Assembly (NCBI GenBank): GCA_001603505.1
Contig: LUZC01000023.1
Coordinates: forward strand, 1-64,000
Direction of reading: 5' to 3'
Source: Bacteroidales bacterium Bact_11
GTDB lineage: Bacteria; Bacteroidota; Bacteroidia; Bacteroidales; UBA932
DNA: 64,000 bases
The position numbers and the translations under genes are program-made. Each line of letters opens with the position of its first letter. Within the stretch, counting starts at the first letter, position 1. Under the pieces are notes generated by a model, which did not search any database, had not been told where the DNA came from, and was given only the letters and a program-made list of their open reading frames with translations. Positions 70 through 8,260 of the stretch are shown one piece after another.

Positions 70-2706
70 TCAGATCACTTCGAAGGTAGAGACGATTGCC
101 CAGCCTTGGCGTCCGTCGGCGATTTCGATCTTGGAGAAGTCGCCCACGTTGTCGAGGAGTCGGACCTTGGTGCCCTCGTGAAGCACGAATACCGTGTTGC
201 CACCCTGGGCCGGTGAACTCTTCACCGAGCAGACCGGCGAGGTGATGATGGCGCTGTCGTGCCGGGTGACGGCCTGCCGCTGCATTATCGAAAAGATGAA
301 TGCTACGATGGCCGCAGCCAGCACCACGCACCCCAAGATGAACGAAACCTTGCGCAGCGCGGTGGAACCGCCGTTGCGGAACAGGACGAACAGGAGACCG
401 ACCACCGCCAGCAACGCCAGCGTAATCCACGCCCAGGAATCGGCGGAAAGCCCTTGCCGTACCCCGCGGAACCAGGAAACCAGAATGAATTCGGGCACCT
501 CATCGATCTTGTCGAGCGTCATCTGCCGCACGATGGCCAGGTTGTTGGCCGCATCGACGTGCGACGGGTCGAGCTTCAGCGCCCGTTCGAAATAGAGGAT
601 GGCGTGCGCGATGTCGTCCATCTTGAAATAAGTGTTACCGATGTTGTAGTATAGATCGGCGCTCTCAAGGTTTTCGCCCTCGATCATCTGGTAGTAGTTG
701 AGCGCGTTCTGCCACTGCCCGGCCGCAAAGGCTTCGTTGCCGGCCGTCCACAGTGAGGAAACCTCCTCCTGTGCCGCTGCAGAAACCCCGGAGAGACACA
801 GCAGCAACGCTGCAATCGCGGCTCCGGCGGCCTTCTTGCCCGAGGCTTTCGCCGGATTCTTCATCTGGCTTTCGATATCGGAAATAACCCGGACGGCTTC
901 GTTGTATTCGTTCTCCATCTGCGTCTGGCCGCCGTCGGGCGCATAGCGCGCGAACTCGCAGCGGTCGATCAACGTGGCGAGCGCCTCGATGGTCGCATCG
1001 TTCACACCGCGGTCACGCAACTTTTCGCTGACCGAATCCTTCGACAGGTCGGCCGCCGGAATCAGCAGCTTGTCGGAAATATAGCCGAGCAGGGCCTTGT
1101 GCAATTCTTCGTAATAGGCGCCGCCCAGTCCTTGTTTCAGATAGGACTCCGCGTTCTTGAGACGGGTTCGGGCCAGGCGGTTGGCACGCCGGTTCTTGGA
1201 ACCGGCGACATCGGCCCGCCGCTCGTGCCTGCGGCGCACCAGATAATTGATGAGCAGGATAATCAGCGTCAGTGTAAGCATAAGTACATAGAACAGGAGT
1301 GAACCTGCGAAACAAGTGTCTTTTTTCTTGAGGTGACCGTCACTCAGGGCGATGTAACGGATGTCTTCGGCCAGGCTGCGAACGCTCTGCCGATTGCTGC
1401 CAGCCACAGCCACGCCGCCGCCTGCAATCTCTTCTCCCTTCTCCACGGAAATGGCGATGTCGCCGGTGGAGGTGGTGGCATACTTGCCGTGCGCGTTGTC
1501 GTAGTAGCCGTATTCAATCGCTGGTATCACGAACTCGCCGTGACTGCGCGGGATGAACGGGAACTCGAACGTCTTCGAGCCGCTGGTACCGCTGGCGGAA
1601 GTCTTGTCGGTGGTCTTGAGGTCATACACCTCGAAGTCGGGCGGGAAATTAACCTTGGGAGCCTCGAGCATCGAAAGGTTGCCATTGCCGGAGATGGTGA
1701 CGATAAGCGAAGCGGCTTCGTTCGACTTGATGCCGTCCTTGCTCAACTTCGCACTGATTTTGAAATCACCCACGCCGCCGGCGAAGGAAGCCGGCGCACC
1801 CGCCGGCAGGTCGCGCACCTTAACTTGGAGCGTCGGTGTGCTGATCCGTTTGCGGATGGTGGTGTACTGGTCGAAGAAATCGTCGAAGATCGAGAGCGGA
1901 CTGCCGCCGGAAGAGGAGCGTACGCGCAGCTGGCATACCATTTCCGCCGGATCGATGGACAGTGAGCCGCTCTGCTGCGGAATCAGCACCCATTGGCGTA
2001 CCAAAGCCGAGTTGTAAATCGTGCCATTTACGTTTTCCCTGTTGAATTCCAGGTTGTTGACCGTTACGGTCTCTTTGCTCCAGAAGCCGTTGAACGTGGG
2101 GAATTTGACATCCTCGAATCCGACGATGTCGGTTCGGGTGTAGAGTTTCAGCGTAGCGGTGACGGGCTCGCCCTTGACGACGTTGGTCTTGTTGAGTGTC
2201 AGGCGAAGGAAGATGTCCTGATTGGAGACGGTACCCGTGACGGTGGGATCGTTGCTGCCGGCGTTACCCTGCGATGGCTGCTGCGTATTGGACTGGGTAT
2301 TGCCATCGCCGGTGTCGCCGGCCTGCGGTTGGACCGCTGAGGCCACGACTTCGATCTGAAGCTGTCCCGATGAAACGCTTTCCTTGCCAACTGTCGCCGT
2401 GGCGGCCGCCAGCATGAAGGTGCCCGTCTTTTTGGGCTGAAGGAGATAGGTTATGGTCTCCTGGTGCGTGGACGTGCGTTTTCCGTTCACGAAACTGGTG
2501 TTGCTCATGGAGCCCCGCTGCGGCCCCCAAACCACGTCGAAATCGTCGGTGCCGGGCCAATCGAAATCGCTCATCCGGTCGTCGGCGGTAAAGACGATGC
2601 GGAAGGTCTCGTCGGCCGAAACCACCCGCGGACCCTCGACTTTGAGCGTCTGGGCCAGGCCCGTGACGGAGCTCAAAAGCATCAGCCATGTAAGAATGCG
2701 TTTCAT
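70..2706 (-). CDS. BatD-BatE fusion: BatD-like N-terminal beta domains, TM and cytosolic region, then TPR domain, two TM helices and SH3-like tail
   Basis: ORF 70..2718; the ATG at 2706 (MKRILTWLMLLSSVTGLAQ signal peptide) is preferred over the TTG at 2718. BatD-like sequence, then TPR (AADLYYNIGNTYFKMDDIAHAILYFERALKLDP) and a C-terminal SH3-like segment. Confidence 0.85.
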   Translation of the reverse strand: MKRILTWLMLLSSVTGLAQTLKVEGPRVVSADETFRIVFTADDRMSDFDWPGTDDFDVVWGPQRGSMSNTSFVNGKRTSTHQETITYLLQPKKTGTFMLAAATATVGKESVSSGQLQIEVVASAVQPQAGDTGDGNTQSNTQQPSQGNAGSNDPTVTGTVSNQDIFLRLTLNKTNVVKGEPVTATLKLYTRTDIVGFEDVKFPTFNGFWSKETVTVNNLEFNRENVNGTIYNSALVRQWVLIPQQSGSLSIDPAEMVCQLRVRSSSGGSPLSIFDDFFDQYTTIRKRISTPTLQVKVRDLPAGAPASFAGGVGDFKISAKLSKDGIKSNEAASLIVTISGNGNLSMLEAPKVNFPPDFEVYDLKTTDKTSASGTSGSKTFEFPFIPRSHGEFVIPAIEYGYYDNAHGKYATTSTGDIAISVEKGEEIAGGGVAVAGSNRQSVRSLAEDIRYIALSDGHLKKKDTCFAGSLLFYVLMLTLTLIILLINYLVRRRHERRADVAGSKNRRANRLARTRLKNAESYLKQGLGGAYYEELHKALLGYISDKLLIPAADLSKDSVSEKLRDRGVNDATIEALATLIDRCEFARYAPDGGQTQMENEYNEAVRVISDIESQMKNPAKASGKKAAGAAIAALLLCLSGVSAAAQEEVSSLWTAGNEAFAAGQWQNALNYYQMIEGENLESADLYYNIGNTYFKMDDIAHAILYFERALKLDPSHVDAANNLAIVRQMTLDKIDEVPEFILVSWFRGVRQGLSADSWAWITLALLAVVGLLFVLFRNGGSTALRKVSFILGCVVLAAAIVAFIFSIMQRQAVTRHDSAIITSPVCSVKSSPAQGGNTVFVLHEGTKVRLLDNVGDFSKIEIADGRQGWAIVSTFEVI

Positions 2707-2711
2707 TGCTT

Positions 2712-4445
2712 CTACCAATTTTTCTCTTTCTGTTTCGATTTCAGCTTCGCGGCCTTTTCCTTCTTGACCTTGTCCTGCGTCTTGTCCTCCTGGGCCTGGA
2801 TGGCCTGCAGCATCTGCTGGGCGGCCTGCGGCGTTATCTTGGACTCCTGGCCTTGGTTCTGCTGCTGGTCCTGGTTCTGATCCTGGTTCTGATCTTGATT
2901 CTGATCGGGATTCTGCTGTTGGTCCTGCTGATCGTTCTGGTCCTTATTCTGATCGTTGTTCTGATCCTGCTGCTGATCCTGATTCTGATCTTGATTCTGG
3001 TCGTTGTTGTCCCCGCCGCCACCATTTTGCGGTTCATTCTCCAGCATCTTCTGGGCATAGGCCAGATTTTCCTTTGTCTCCCTGTCGTCCGGCCGGCGAC
3101 GCAACGAGTTCTTGTAGGCATCGATGGCGCCCTGCCAATTGCGCTGCTTCAGCAGCGAATTGCCCATGTTGTGGTAAGCGTCTGCACCGTATTTTCCCTT
3201 GGCCAGCGAATCGATGCCCGCCTTGTAATAGCGGTCGGCTTCGCCGTAATTCTCCATACGGTAATAATCGTTGGCCAGGTTGTAGTCGGCCGCGATGGAG
3301 GTCGAGTCTGCTACCAACGCCTTCTTGTAGTCGATTTCCGCCTCGGCATAATGATCCTTCTTGAACTCGCGGTTGCCATGGCGTACGCTCTTGCGTTCGC
3401 TCTGCGCGAAACAAACGGTTGTACAGAGCAGCATGATCAACACGGTGAAGAGTTTCCGCCGGGCGCGGCGGCCGGGAACCAGGAATTCCAGGACCAGGAA
3501 GAAGAGGGCGATGGCAAAGAAATACATATACTGTTCGTCGAAGTCTTCGAACACCACCGATTTGAACTGCTCCTTGTCGATGGTGCGGATGTCGTCGATA
3601 ATGGGGTTGAGGCCGAATTCGCTGTTGCCGGCGCGAACATACTTACCCTGGCCGATACCGGCGATTTCCTGCAGGATGTCTTCGTCGAGCCGCGACACCA
3701 CGATTTCACCGTCTTTGTCTTTCATCAGGCCGCCGCCCTTGAGGGGAATCGGCTTGCCCTGCGGGGTGCCCACGCCGATGCAATAAATGCGAATACCCTG
3801 TTCGGCGATGGTGCGGGCTGCGTCGAGCGCTTCGCCTTCGTGGTCCTCACCGTCGGTGATCAGGATGATGGCGCGCGAGCGTTCGCTCTGCGTGCTGAAA
3901 CTGCGGGCCGATGCCATCAGTGCCGCGGCCAGGTCGGTGCCCTGGATGGGCACGCTGCCGGTGTCGATGCTCTTCAGGAAGATCTTGGCCGAAACATAGT
4001 CGGCCGTGATGGGAAGCTGTACGAACGACTCGCCGGCGAAGACCACCAGTCCGATGCGGTCGCCCTGCAGGCGGTCTACCAGCCTGGAAATAGCCAGTTT
4101 GGAACGCTCCAGCCGGTTGGGCGAATAATCTTCAGCCAGCATCGAATTGGAAACGTCGAGGGCGATCATCACTTCCACGCCCTGGCTCTCATGTTCCTTG
4201 AGGCGGGCGCCCAGCTGCGGCCGGGCCAGGCCGATCACGAAGAAAAACCAGGCAGCGGCCAGCAGGCTGATCTTGAGCCATCCCTTGCCGGTAGAGGCAT
4301 CGGGCATCAGGCGGCGGACCATCTCCGCATTGCCAAAACGCGCCAGTCGCCGGCGGCGCATGCGCAAGTACAGCGCATAGCCCACGAACAGCAGCGGAAT
4401 CAGCAGTAGGAGAAGCAGATATTGACTTTGTGTCAGATAGACCAT
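2712..4445 (-). CDS. BatB-BatC fusion: membrane VWA-domain protein fused to TPR protein with D/N/Q-rich tail
   Basis: VWA MIDAS motif (ALDVSNSMLAEDYSPNRLERSK), TM helices, then TPR repeats and a DQNQDQ low-complexity tail. Confidence 0.88.
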   Translation of the reverse strand: MVYLTQSQYLLLLLLIPLLFVGYALYLRMRRRRLARFGNAEMVRRLMPDASTGKGWLKISLLAAAWFFFVIGLARPQLGARLKEHESQGVEVMIALDVSNSMLAEDYSPNRLERSKLAISRLVDRLQGDRIGLVVFAGESFVQLPITADYVSAKIFLKSIDTGSVPIQGTDLAAALMASARSFSTQSERSRAIILITDGEDHEGEALDAARTIAEQGIRIYCIGVGTPQGKPIPLKGGGLMKDKDGEIVVSRLDEDILQEIAGIGQGKYVRAGNSEFGLNPIIDDIRTIDKEQFKSVVFEDFDEQYMYFFAIALFFLVLEFLVPGRRARRKLFTVLIMLLCTTVCFAQSERKSVRHGNREFKKDHYAEAEIDYKKALVADSTSIAADYNLANDYYRMENYGEADRYYKAGIDSLAKGKYGADAYHNMGNSLLKQRNWQGAIDAYKNSLRRRPDDRETKENLAYAQKMLENEPQNGGGGDNNDQNQDQNQDQQQDQNNDQNKDQNDQQDQQQNPDQNQDQNQDQNQDQQQNQGQESKITPQAAQQMLQAIQAQEDKTQDKVKKEKAAKLKSKQKEKNW

Positions 4446-5431
4446 TACGGAATCCTCCTCAATACGATGAACCGGAAAAACAGCTCGCCCAGCAGGCAGA
4501 AGAGCGCAATCAGCGCGAAGCGCATGAACAGTTCGGAATACACCGGGAAACTGTCGACGGTGGTGCGCGTCTTTTCCATCTGGTTGATCTCGTTGTAGAT
4601 TTCCATCAACTTGGTGTTGTTGGTGGCACGGAAGTACTTGCCTCCGGTTTCCGAGGCGATCTGTCGCAGGAGATCTTCGTCGATTTCAACCTTGACGTTC
4701 TGAATCTGCACGCCCCAGGGCGTCATGAACGGGTAGGGAGCCTCGCCCATCGCACCCACGCCGATGGTGTAGACGCGGACGCCGTAGGTCTTGGCGATCT
4801 CGGTGGCCATCAGGGGCGAGACTTCGCCGCAGTTGTTCATGCCGTCGGTCAGCAGGATTACTACCTTGCTTTTTGCTTCGGAATCTTTCAGGCGCGCCAC
4901 GGCGGTGGCCAGGCCGTTGCCAATAGCGGTCCCGTCGTCGATCAGCCCGGTTTCCACTTCCTTCATCAGGTTGATGAGGGTGGCACGGTCGGTGGTCAGC
5001 GGCGCCTGTGTGTAGCTCTCGCCGGCAAACACCACGATACCCATGCGGTCGGCCGGACGGCTGGCGATGAATTCCATGGCGATATCCTTGGCGGCTCCGA
5101 TGCGGTCGGGCTTGAAGTCGCGGGCCAGCATGGAAGTGGAGACGTCCATCGTCAGCACGATGTCAATGCCTTCGGTGTCGACCTTCTCGAAGTTCTCCGA
5201 CGAACGCGGCCGGGCGATGGCCACGATGAGTGCCGCCATGGCCAGCATCCGGAGGATGAAGGGGATGTGGCGCAGCCACGTGGCGGGATGCGTCTTACCG
5301 TCATCCCATTGGGCCGTATTCGAAACAGTAAGACCCGGATCTTGGCCGCGCAACTGCCGCCACAGGTAAATCGCCAGCAGCGGAATCAGCAGCAGTTCAA
5401 GCCAGAGCAGGTTGGGGTATTCAAAAAACAT
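4445..5431 (-). CDS. BatA-like VWA domain membrane protein
   Basis: VWA MIDAS (TMDVSTSMLARDFKPDRIGAAKD), flanking TM helices, position in Bat operon. Confidence 0.9.
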   Translation of the reverse strand: MFFEYPNLLWLELLLIPLLAIYLWRQLRGQDPGLTVSNTAQWDDGKTHPATWLRHIPFILRMLAMAALIVAIARPRSSENFEKVDTEGIDIVLTMDVSTSMLARDFKPDRIGAAKDIAMEFIASRPADRMGIVVFAGESYTQAPLTTDRATLINLMKEVETGLIDDGTAIGNGLATAVARLKDSEAKSKVVILLTDGMNNCGEVSPLMATEIAKTYGVRVYTIGVGAMGEAPYPFMTPWGVQIQNVKVEIDEDLLRQIASETGGKYFRATNNTKLMEIYNEINQMEKTRTTVDSFPVYSELFMRFALIALFCLLGELFFRFIVLRRIP

Positions 5432-6382
5432 CTATTCTTCCTCCTCCTCTTTCACTTGTTGCATATAGGTGTCGTTGACGAACCGGATCGCCGTGGGAAT
5501 GGCGCTCTCGTTCTCCTGGTCGGTGGCGGTGTGCTTGGCGAACTTCACGAAGTCGGCGGTGGTGAACAGGTCCTTCATCTGGTCCATCAGGGCCGGCTCG
5601 ATGTCCTTGCCTTCCAGGTCGCGGAACATCTCGCCGGAGGTCTGCTCGAGGGCGGACACGTCGTAGCGCTCGGCGATGTACTGGCGCAGGGCGTCGGTTA
5701 CCTGCGTGTAGAACTGTTTCTGCTTGCCGGCCTGCCAGAGTTTTTGGGCACGTGTCTTTTCGAGGCTGCGGAGCGCAACGATGTGGGGCGGATCCTGGAC
5801 CACAGGCTTGCCAAACAGCGTACGGTTCTGTTTCCGCATCCGGATCCAGCGGATGAGCAGCCATACCAGCGCGGCGACCAGCAGCGCCAGACCGATCCAG
5901 GGCAGTGTTTCCTTGAAAGTAATAGGATAACGGATCTGGCCCTTGATGTCGTGGGGCTGGAAGGTGGCTGTGTCGATGGGGAAGGTGTCCACCGCCAGCG
6001 TCGGTCCGGCATATTCGAGCGTGTCGACGGTGCCGTCGGCGCGGGCGAGGAGGACATAGAGCGGCGGAAGAGCATAACTGCCGCTATCGAAGCTTGTGAG
6101 GGTAACGCGCCCCTGGAGATTCAGGATGCCGTTTTTGGTGGAAAGGGTGTCGAGCGCGAGTTCGCCAAGCGCTTCGACGCCGGGAACCGGCGATTCGCCG
6201 GGTTTGCTGATGCGCGCCGATTCGCCAGGTGCGAGCTGCAGGTCGAGTGTCCACTCGATCTGGTCGCCGATCAGGATGGAGTCGCGGCTGAGGCGGCTGC
6301 GCAAGGCTCCGTCGGCGTCCTGTCCGAAAAGGGGAAAGGCGGCGAGCAGCAAGGTGCAGATTCCGGATAGCATCTTCTTCAT
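5432..6382 (-). CDS. Bat-operon membrane protein with short BatD-like architecture (signal peptide, beta domain, TM, cytosolic helical domain)
   Basis: Signal peptide MKKMLSGICTLLLAAFPLFGQ, one central TM (LPWIGLALLVAALVWLLIRW), between the DUF58 and BatA genes. Confidence 0.75.
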   Translation of the reverse strand: MKKMLSGICTLLLAAFPLFGQDADGALRSRLSRDSILIGDQIEWTLDLQLAPGESARISKPGESPVPGVEALGELALDTLSTKNGILNLQGRVTLTSFDSGSYALPPLYVLLARADGTVDTLEYAGPTLAVDTFPIDTATFQPHDIKGQIRYPITFKETLPWIGLALLVAALVWLLIRWIRMRKQNRTLFGKPVVQDPPHIVALRSLEKTRAQKLWQAGKQKQFYTQVTDALRQYIAERYDVSALEQTSGEMFRDLEGKDIEPALMDQMKDLFTTADFVKFAKHTATDQENESAIPTAIRFVNDTYMQQVKEEEEE

Positions 6383-6383
6383 A

Positions 6384-7268
6384 TTATGCTCTGTTTTTGA
6401 AGAATGCGATCAAATTCTTAACATAGTCCTCTCCGGTGCCGATGCGGACGTTGTCGATGCGGTAGCGGCGCAGCGTGGCGAGGGTGTTGTCGGTAGCTTC
6501 CCGCCTCCAGGTTTCATAGTTGCGCCGCACGGCGGCCGACGAGGTGTTGATCCAGCGCTCGCGGCCCGTTTCGGCATCGCGGATGTGCACCAGTCCGATA
6601 TCGGGCAGCGTAAGTTCACGCGGGTCGTAGATGTCGATGACCGAAATGTCGTGGCGGCCGGCTGCAATCTTGAGGGCGTCCTCGTAGCGGGGAAGCCGCT
6701 GGTCGTCCAGGTCGATCATGTCGGAAAGGACAAACGCTGTGCAGCGCTTCTTGATGGCGTTGGTCAGGTAGCGGAGGGCGGCGCCGATGTCGGTGCCTCT
6801 GTCTTCCGGCTCGAATTCCACCAGTTCGCGAATGATGCGGAGCAGGTGGCTCCTGCCTTTCTTGGGCGGGATGAATTTCTCCACCCTGGAACTGAAGAAC
6901 AGGGCCCCCACTTTGTCGTTGTTGATGGCGGCGGAGAAGGAAAGCACGGCGGCGATTTCGGTAATCAGGTCTTTCTTGGTCTGGCTGGTCGTTCCGAACA
7001 GGCGCGAGCCGCTCACGTCGATGAGCAGCATCACCGTAAGCTCGCGCTCTTCTTCGAAGACCTTGACATAGGGGCTGCGCAGGCGGGCGGTGACGTTCCA
7101 GTCCATGCTGCGCACGTCGTCGCCGTACTGGTACTCACGCACTTCGCTGAAGGCCATGCCGCGTCCCTTGAACGCAGAATGGTACTCTCCGGCGAAGACC
7201 TGGTGAGACAGCGCCTTCGTCTTGATTTCGATTTTCCGTACCTTCTTTAACAAGTCGTTTTCCATCAT
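6384..7268 (-). CDS. DUF58 domain protein (MoxR-associated)
   Basis: Start trimmed to MMENDLLKKVRKIEIKTK; contains DUF58 core (GRGMAFSEVREYQYGDDVRSMDWNVTAR) and a degenerate VWA region. Follows moxR. Confidence 0.9.
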   Translation of the reverse strand: MMENDLLKKVRKIEIKTKALSHQVFAGEYHSAFKGRGMAFSEVREYQYGDDVRSMDWNVTARLRSPYVKVFEEERELTVMLLIDVSGSRLFGTTSQTKKDLITEIAAVLSFSAAINNDKVGALFFSSRVEKFIPPKKGRSHLLRIIRELVEFEPEDRGTDIGAALRYLTNAIKKRCTAFVLSDMIDLDDQRLPRYEDALKIAAGRHDISVIDIYDPRELTLPDIGLVHIRDAETGRERWINTSSAAVRRNYETWRREATDNTLATLRRYRIDNVRIGTGEDYVKNLIAFFKNRA

Positions 7269-8260
7269 TAAGGAACTTCTACGGCGTTGAGCACTTCGGT
7301 AATGATTTCTTCGGAGGTGATGTTTTCGGCTTCGGCTTCGTAGGTCAGGCCGATGCGGTGACGGAGCACATCGTAGCACACGGCGCGCACGTCTTCGGGA
7401 ATCACGTAACCGCGACGCTTGATGAAAGCGTAGGCCTTGGCCGCCATGGCGAGCGAGATGCTGGCACGCGGCGATCCGCCGAAGGAGATCATGTCCTTGA
7501 GTTTGCCGAGCCCGTATTCTTCCGGCTGGCGCGTGGCGAACACGATGTCCACGATGTAGCGCTCGATTTTCTCGTCCATGTACACGTCGCGCACCACTTC
7601 GCGGGCCCGCACAATGTCCTCAGGCTTAAGTTGCGCGCTCGGGCGCGGAAACTCACCCTGGTTGTTCATCCGGATGATGAGTTTTTCCTCGTCCTTCTTC
7701 GGATAGGTGACTTTCACTTTCAGCATGAAGCGGTCGACCTGTGCTTCGGGCAGGGGATAGGTGCCTTCCTGCTCGATGGGGTTCTGCGTGGCCATTACCA
7801 GGAACGGTTCGGGCAGCTTGAAGGTGCTCTCGCCGATGGTCACCTGACGCTCCTGCATGGCTTCGAGCAGGGCCGACTGCACTTTGGCCGGGCTGCGGTT
7901 GATTTCATCGGCCAGTACGAAATTGGCGAACACGGGGCCTTTCTTGATTTGGAACTGTTCGCTTTTCTGGCTGTAGATCATCGTACCGATAAGGTCGGCC
8001 GGCAACAGGTCGGGTGTGAACTGGATGCGGTTGAATTTGGCATCCACGATCTGGGCGAGCGTGTTGATGGCCAGGGTCTTCGCCAGGCCGGGCATGCCTT
8101 CGAGCAGGATGTGTCCGTTGGCCAGTAAACCGATGAGGAGGTTGTCGACGAGCTGCTTTTGCCCCACGATCACCTTGCCCATCTCCATCTGGATGATGTC
8201 GACAAAGGCGCTCTCCTTCTCGATGCGCTCATTTAACGCTTTAATGTTTACGCTATCCAT
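7268..8260 (-). CDS. MoxR-family AAA+ ATPase
   Basis: Walker A-like GMPGLAKT, Walker B VLADEINRSPAKVQSALLEAMQERQVT, ATQNPIEQEGTYPLPEAQVDRF. Confidence 0.95.
   Translation of the reverse strand: MDSVNIKALNERIEKESAFVDIIQMEMGKVIVGQKQLVDNLLIGLLANGHILLEGMPGLAKTLAINTLAQIVDAKFNRIQFTPDLLPADLIGTMIYSQKSEQFQIKKGPVFANFVLADEINRSPAKVQSALLEAMQERQVTIGESTFKLPEPFLVMATQNPIEQEGTYPLPEAQVDRFMLKVKVTYPKKDEEKLIIRMNNQGEFPRPSAQLKPEDIVRAREVVRDVYMDEKIERYIVDIVFATRQPEEYGLGKLKDMISFGGSPRASISLAMAAKAYAFIKRRGYVIPEDVRAVCYDVLRHRIGLTYEAEAENITSEEIITEVLNAVEVP

Follow-up and report, generated by a model that had tools for sequence, protein, structure and literature searches.

The Bat operon and its fused genes

The window analysed here, 64,000 nucleotides of a contig from a gut Bacteroidales genome, carries a Bat operon on its minus strand from 8260 to 73, in which Pfam identifies MoxR, DUF58, the BatA and BatB VWA proteins, BatD and TPR proteins. 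In transcription order, the genes encode a MoxR AAA+ ATPase (7268..8260; AAA_3, E 5e-67), a DUF58 protein (6384..7379; E 6e-75), a protein with an N-terminal signal peptide and one transmembrane segment (TM) (5432..6382), the VWA protein BatA (4445..5431; BatA N-terminal domain, E 1.6e-12) and the two fusions BatB-BatC and BatD-BatE. The third of these proteins is without a Pfam match and has only a sub-threshold match to the NCBIfam family LB_053.

The batB-batC gene (2712..4445, minus strand) is a single stop-free frame of 577 aa, as an earlier note on this DNA had it, with a VWA domain at residues 92-227 and TPRs at 385-466 by Pfam. Matches to the fused gene occur in 378 of 393 Bacteroidales genomes. 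The BatB part, residues 1-331 (3453..4445), runs TM-TM-VWA-TM, the TMs being read from the sequence, so that a predicted periplasmic VWA lies between two N-terminal TMs and the C-terminal TM3, and a basic tail follows. Among solved structures it is closest to PDB 3ibs, titled 'BatB' (E 1.6e-61), and 3ibs and its relative 4jdu cover residues 87-291.

The mature BatC part, residues 348-577 (2715..3404), has the makeup of a secreted TPR protein downstream of BatB. It matches TPR_1 and TPR_2, more weakly TPR_BatC_Lepto below the cut-off, and is orthologous to the separate batC genes of genus relatives. It ends in a Q/N/D-rich tail, which is a degenerate (QDQN)n-like repeat at 2720-3025 on the minus strand and seems to differ in length among relatives.

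Between the two parts come TM3, YMYFFAIALFFLVLEFLVPG (residues 306-325), the basic tail RRARRK (326-331; GRRARRK with the preceding G), the hydrophobic LFTVLIMLLCTTVCFA (332-347; 3405..3452, minus strand) and Q348. The chain reads on as LFTVLIMLLCTTVCFA/QSERKSVRHGN, where the slash marks the predicted cut, and then enters the TPRs. The hydrophobic segment has the length of the signal-peptide h- and c-region in separate BatC. Its predicted signal peptidase I cut falls between A347 and Q348 (3402..3407, between bases 3405 and 3404), inside the interval 3390-3480 for which the earlier note had quoted a signal-peptide-like segment, and the segment reads as quoted there.

The batD-batE gene (73..2706, minus strand) joins BatD (Pfam E 1.6e-38), TPR and SH3_3 in one frame. 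It encodes BatD with a C-terminal TM, a cytosolic helical part, the signal-peptide-like KNPAKASGKKAAGAAIAALLLCLSGVSAAA (772..861, minus strand) followed by QEE, and then the TPR, TM and SH3 of BatE. Its predicted cut is A645/Q646 (SAAA/QEE). This second fusion of the same design was absent from the earlier note.

Origin and recurrence of the fusions

Of the 40 genomes in the window's genus, batB is present in 36, and 35 of the 36 keep batB and batC separate; the fusion occurs only in the window's genome. The statement that the two genes are usually separate is thereby borne out for this genus, but many related genera depart from it and generally have the fusion.

Aligned with the five nearest genus members (84-86% identical), the window lacks 30 nt by a clean in-frame deletion whose point is 3446..3447 on the minus strand. 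The nearest relatives read, for example, ...ARRKLFKH-TGA-GTC-ATG-AAA-CGA-TAT... at this place. Lost were the batB stop TGA and the ATG AAA CGA TAT ... n-region of batC, while the h-region and CFA/Q were spared. The BatB tail GRRARRK now stands in for the lost n-region. Where batC is a gene of its own, its start usually lies some 5 nt past the batB stop (interquartile range 2-11), so a small deletion or a stop loss readily fuses the genes.

The window's own deletion is known from one contig of a metagenome-assembled genome (MAG) that is 81% complete, and the other 35 genus members with batB have separate genes. Both facts lend something to the view that an assembly or sequencing error hides separate genes in this organism, which the earlier note had named as a way to overturn the fusion. 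However, a single-base error is an improbable cause, and a clean 30-nt in-frame deletion that spares both frames and the cut site is untypical of errors. Moreover, the same architecture is found in many other, unrelated genomes and clades, one of them without a MAG label. An error is hence very unlikely.

That last case is locus L035 (NZ_NFIV01000003.1, titled Muribaculum sp. An289), which carries both the BatB-BatC and the BatD-BatE fusion. The BatB tree places it with Candidatus Merdivivens, and the genus name in its record may be wrong.

Operons were drawn from genomes of the order, of the family and from named genomes, and were classed as fused or separate with profile HMMs. The count of fused and separate genes that the earlier note had proposed came to 77 fused and 160 separate for BatB/BatC, and 43 fused and 117 separate for BatD/BatE; the loci are best matches, so these are not population frequencies. 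On the BatB tree, the BatB/BatC state changes at least 17 times, or 11 times if only branches with support of at least 95 are counted, against 57 or more changes upon label shuffling, and the fused loci form 19 clades. The BatD/BatE state changes at least 7-8 times. The tree thus points to a BatB-BatC fusion that arose repeatedly across the class, with at least 11-17 switches.

The two fusions are combined in various ways. The Coprenecus-type lineages have BatB-BatC fused and BatD, BatE separate, and the window's genus relatives the reverse. Both fusions coincide at five loci, namely the window, L035, L038, L102 and L150. The BatD-BatE fusion is common to those close relatives of the window in which the downstream genes are present (L032-L034, L051, L056 and others), the more distant L036 being an exception with unfused genes.

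The predicted signal peptide at the junction

A signal peptide is expected to have a basic n-region, a hydrophobic core of 10-15 residues and small residues at -3 and -1. The junction offers the basic RRARRK, the core LFTVLIMLLCTTV and then CFA, and CFA/Q is precisely the site chosen by a predictor that takes no account of position +1. Its location is not N-terminal but internal, at residues 326-347, and there is no usable start codon ahead. TTVC in it was considered as a lipobox and rejected, the L-[AS]-[GA]-C pattern being absent.

By the Q-rule of Bacteroidetes, cleavage with signal peptidase I leaves most substrates with a +1 Gln at the new N-terminus, which then cyclises to pyroglutamate (PMC5837995, PMC10653852). 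Q348 lies at this position. A small residue followed by Gln stands at the site in all 81 fusions found, 77 from Bacteroidales and four from other orders of the class. The latter (L270, L281, L292, L295) keep [AS]/Q and end in YS/Q, AA/Q, SA/Q and SS/Q. Two of them, L292 and L295 from another order (family f168), have a very short loop and a basic tail of only RRR; the L292 junction is PRRRLFFLFAFAFPLVASA/Q.

Gln lies 7-11 residues ahead of the BatC RxGN at 77/77 fused junctions. The residue before it was not forced by the search and is A in 64, G in 9, S in 3 and C in 1. The motif [small/aliphatic]-x-[AGSC]-Q is present at all 77, against a mean of 15.3 and a maximum of 27 in 2000 residue shuffles, and the junction claimed by the earlier note thus exceeds chance. 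At -3 the restriction is only moderate, with A in 27, L in 25, V in 9 and M in 8.

The predictor blind to +1 places Q at +1 in 65 of 77 fused junctions and in 128 of 159 separate BatC (Fisher p 0.59), whereas it does so in 0-3% at BatB's own three TMs. The length from the last charge to the cut has a median of 17 in both fused and separate proteins. A simple signal-peptidase site score failed to set the junction apart from BatB TM2 (p 0.057); it was dropped as a discriminator, since TM2 scores nearly as high and only the +1 Gln separates them.

The site is retained in each of the 19 fused clades. The 36-member clade holds 19 distinct junctions at BatB tree distances of up to 0.7, and its entropy is 0 at +1 and 0.63 bit at -1 versus 2.0-2.6 bit at -2, -4, -5 and +2. 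Positions +3, +6 to +8, +10 and +11 of BatC are conserved too, so the Gln could be kept for BatC's own structure. Such a cause would leave the small residue at -1 unexplained.

Start codons bear on another explanation, that BatC is also or mainly translated from a start codon within the fused frame and has a normal N-terminal signal peptide. An in-frame ATG followed by K/R does lie ahead of the h-region in 8 of 77 BatB-BatC and 26 of 43 BatD-BatE fused junctions, the window's BatD-BatE (MKNPAKASGKK...) included. However, such an ATG is missing from the other 69/77 BatB-BatC junctions, and any ATG, GTG or TTG is missing from 42/77, so an internal start cannot be the general explanation. The window's BatB-BatC junction has no in-frame start codon there, the deletion having taken the batC ATG together with the n-region. 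Internal initiation is thus scarcely credible.

Probable cleavage of the fused chains

The earlier note left two options, a polyprotein split by signal peptidase I and a genuine fused protein. The comparison favours the former: A, G, S or C at -1 and Q at +1 persist in each independent fusion while their neighbours drift. We put the probability that signal peptidase I splits the fused chain, as a co-translational polyprotein, at roughly 0.85.

In this model, the product of the fused gene would be inserted by Sec, with the VWA of BatB in the periplasm and the C-terminal RRARRK in the cytosol. The 16-residue hydrophobic segment would then restart translocation as an internal signal peptide and bring the BatC TPR domain to the periplasm. 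Signal peptidase I would cut CFA/Q to yield membrane BatB and free periplasmic BatC. The leftover signal-peptide helix would stay on the BatB C-terminus, perhaps trimmed, and the N-terminal Gln of BatC would become pyroglutamate. For the window's protein, we infer the topology, the cleavage, the cyclisation and the 1:1 synthesis.

The topology agrees with a spirochaete homologue, BB0173, whose VWA was measured to be periplasmic and is held by three TMs (PMC5700661). Such an arrangement would leave the tail cytosolic, so that the segment after it can export BatC. Signal peptidase I is encoded in 34 of 40 genomes of the window's genus and in 13 of the 13 good-quality ones; Peptidase_S26 was not found in the window's own, 81% complete MAG. 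Pfam Peptidase_M28 was discarded as a marker of glutaminyl cyclase, being too broad to inform.

Alternatively, the chain may stay uncleaved, with the segment as a fourth transmembrane helix that tethers the BatC TPRs to BatB in the periplasm. This would give the correct topology as well, BatB and BatC have been proposed to work within one complex, and bat genes are commonly fused (the genomes compared here; PMC3557215). However, it explains neither the small residue directly before Gln in every independent fusion nor the signal-peptide length of the segment. Were the chain an uncleaved tether, nothing would maintain the pair of a small -1 residue and a +1 Gln across so many independent fusions, which argues for cleavage. 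We regard the tether as unlikely, and the split polyprotein as the preferred reading.

The window's BatD-BatE fusion most likely works like BatB-BatC. AxA-type sites are retained at the fused BatD-BatE junctions and score no lower than those of separate BatE. Gln is found in 13 of 43 fused versus 39 of 117 separate, and BatE obeys the Q-rule less, fused or separate.

Polyproteins cut by host proteases are usually seen as a viral or eukaryotic device, and to our knowledge few bacterial ones are proven and the arrangement is rare in bacteria. In Bradyrhizobium japonicum, the cytochrome b/c1 precursor FbcH is one chain that signal peptidase cuts in two. The window's gene has the same anatomy, in which a membrane protein, an internal, predicted-cleavable signal and an exported protein are encoded together, and the two products of FbcH, like those predicted for the window's gene, belong to one complex, one in the membrane and one facing the periplasm. 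FbcH is unrelated to the Bat proteins, and the Bat fusion has many origins in one operon and bears the Bacteroidetes +1 Gln.

The Bat operon of Leptospira biflexa also contains batB and batC as a single fused frame (PMC3557215). Unlike the window's, this is one case in a spirochaete, and the portion of the report available discusses no junction signal peptide or cleavage; it also states that a batABD deletion gave no oxidative-stress phenotype (PMC3557215). Likewise, Borrelia burgdorferi BB0170 is a BatD-TPR-SH3 fusion, in which one protein carries the domains of BatD and BatE as the second fusion of the window does, but processing at its junction is not described in the available part of its source (PMC5700661). 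Like the window's site, the described Q-rule substrates of signal peptidase I combine a small -1 residue with a +1 Gln, but their signal peptides are N-terminal and the window's is internal (PMC5837995, PMC10653852). The Q-rule is described for Bacteroidetes and not for related phyla, and L. biflexa is a spirochaete.

Hence, BatB-BatC and BatD-BatE fusions in spirochaetes and signal-peptidase-split fusions such as FbcH are already known. What appears new, as far as shown, is that fusion recurs in Bacteroidia and retains the Q-rule cut site every time, in two neighbouring gene pairs. More tentatively, the Bacteroidia Bat operon may have run the same natural experiment many times, with selection for signal-peptidase-split polyproteins of BatB-BatC, BatD-BatE or sometimes both. 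They would perhaps fix the stoichiometry or place BatC and BatE co-translationally at the assembly site, and the leftover signal peptide would be a fourth BatB helix.

One operon with many fusions and a cut site always kept makes a convenient model in which to test signal-peptidase-split polyproteins. Arguments on the topology and stoichiometry of the Bat complex hinge on whether the link between BatB and BatC persists. If it is cut, annotation as single VWA/TPR fusions would misread the products. Opposite batB-batC, the plus strand has an L/V/I-rich open frame of 567 aa (2706-4409), which appears to mirror the high-GC coding strand along with the Q/N/D-rich tail and not to be a gene.
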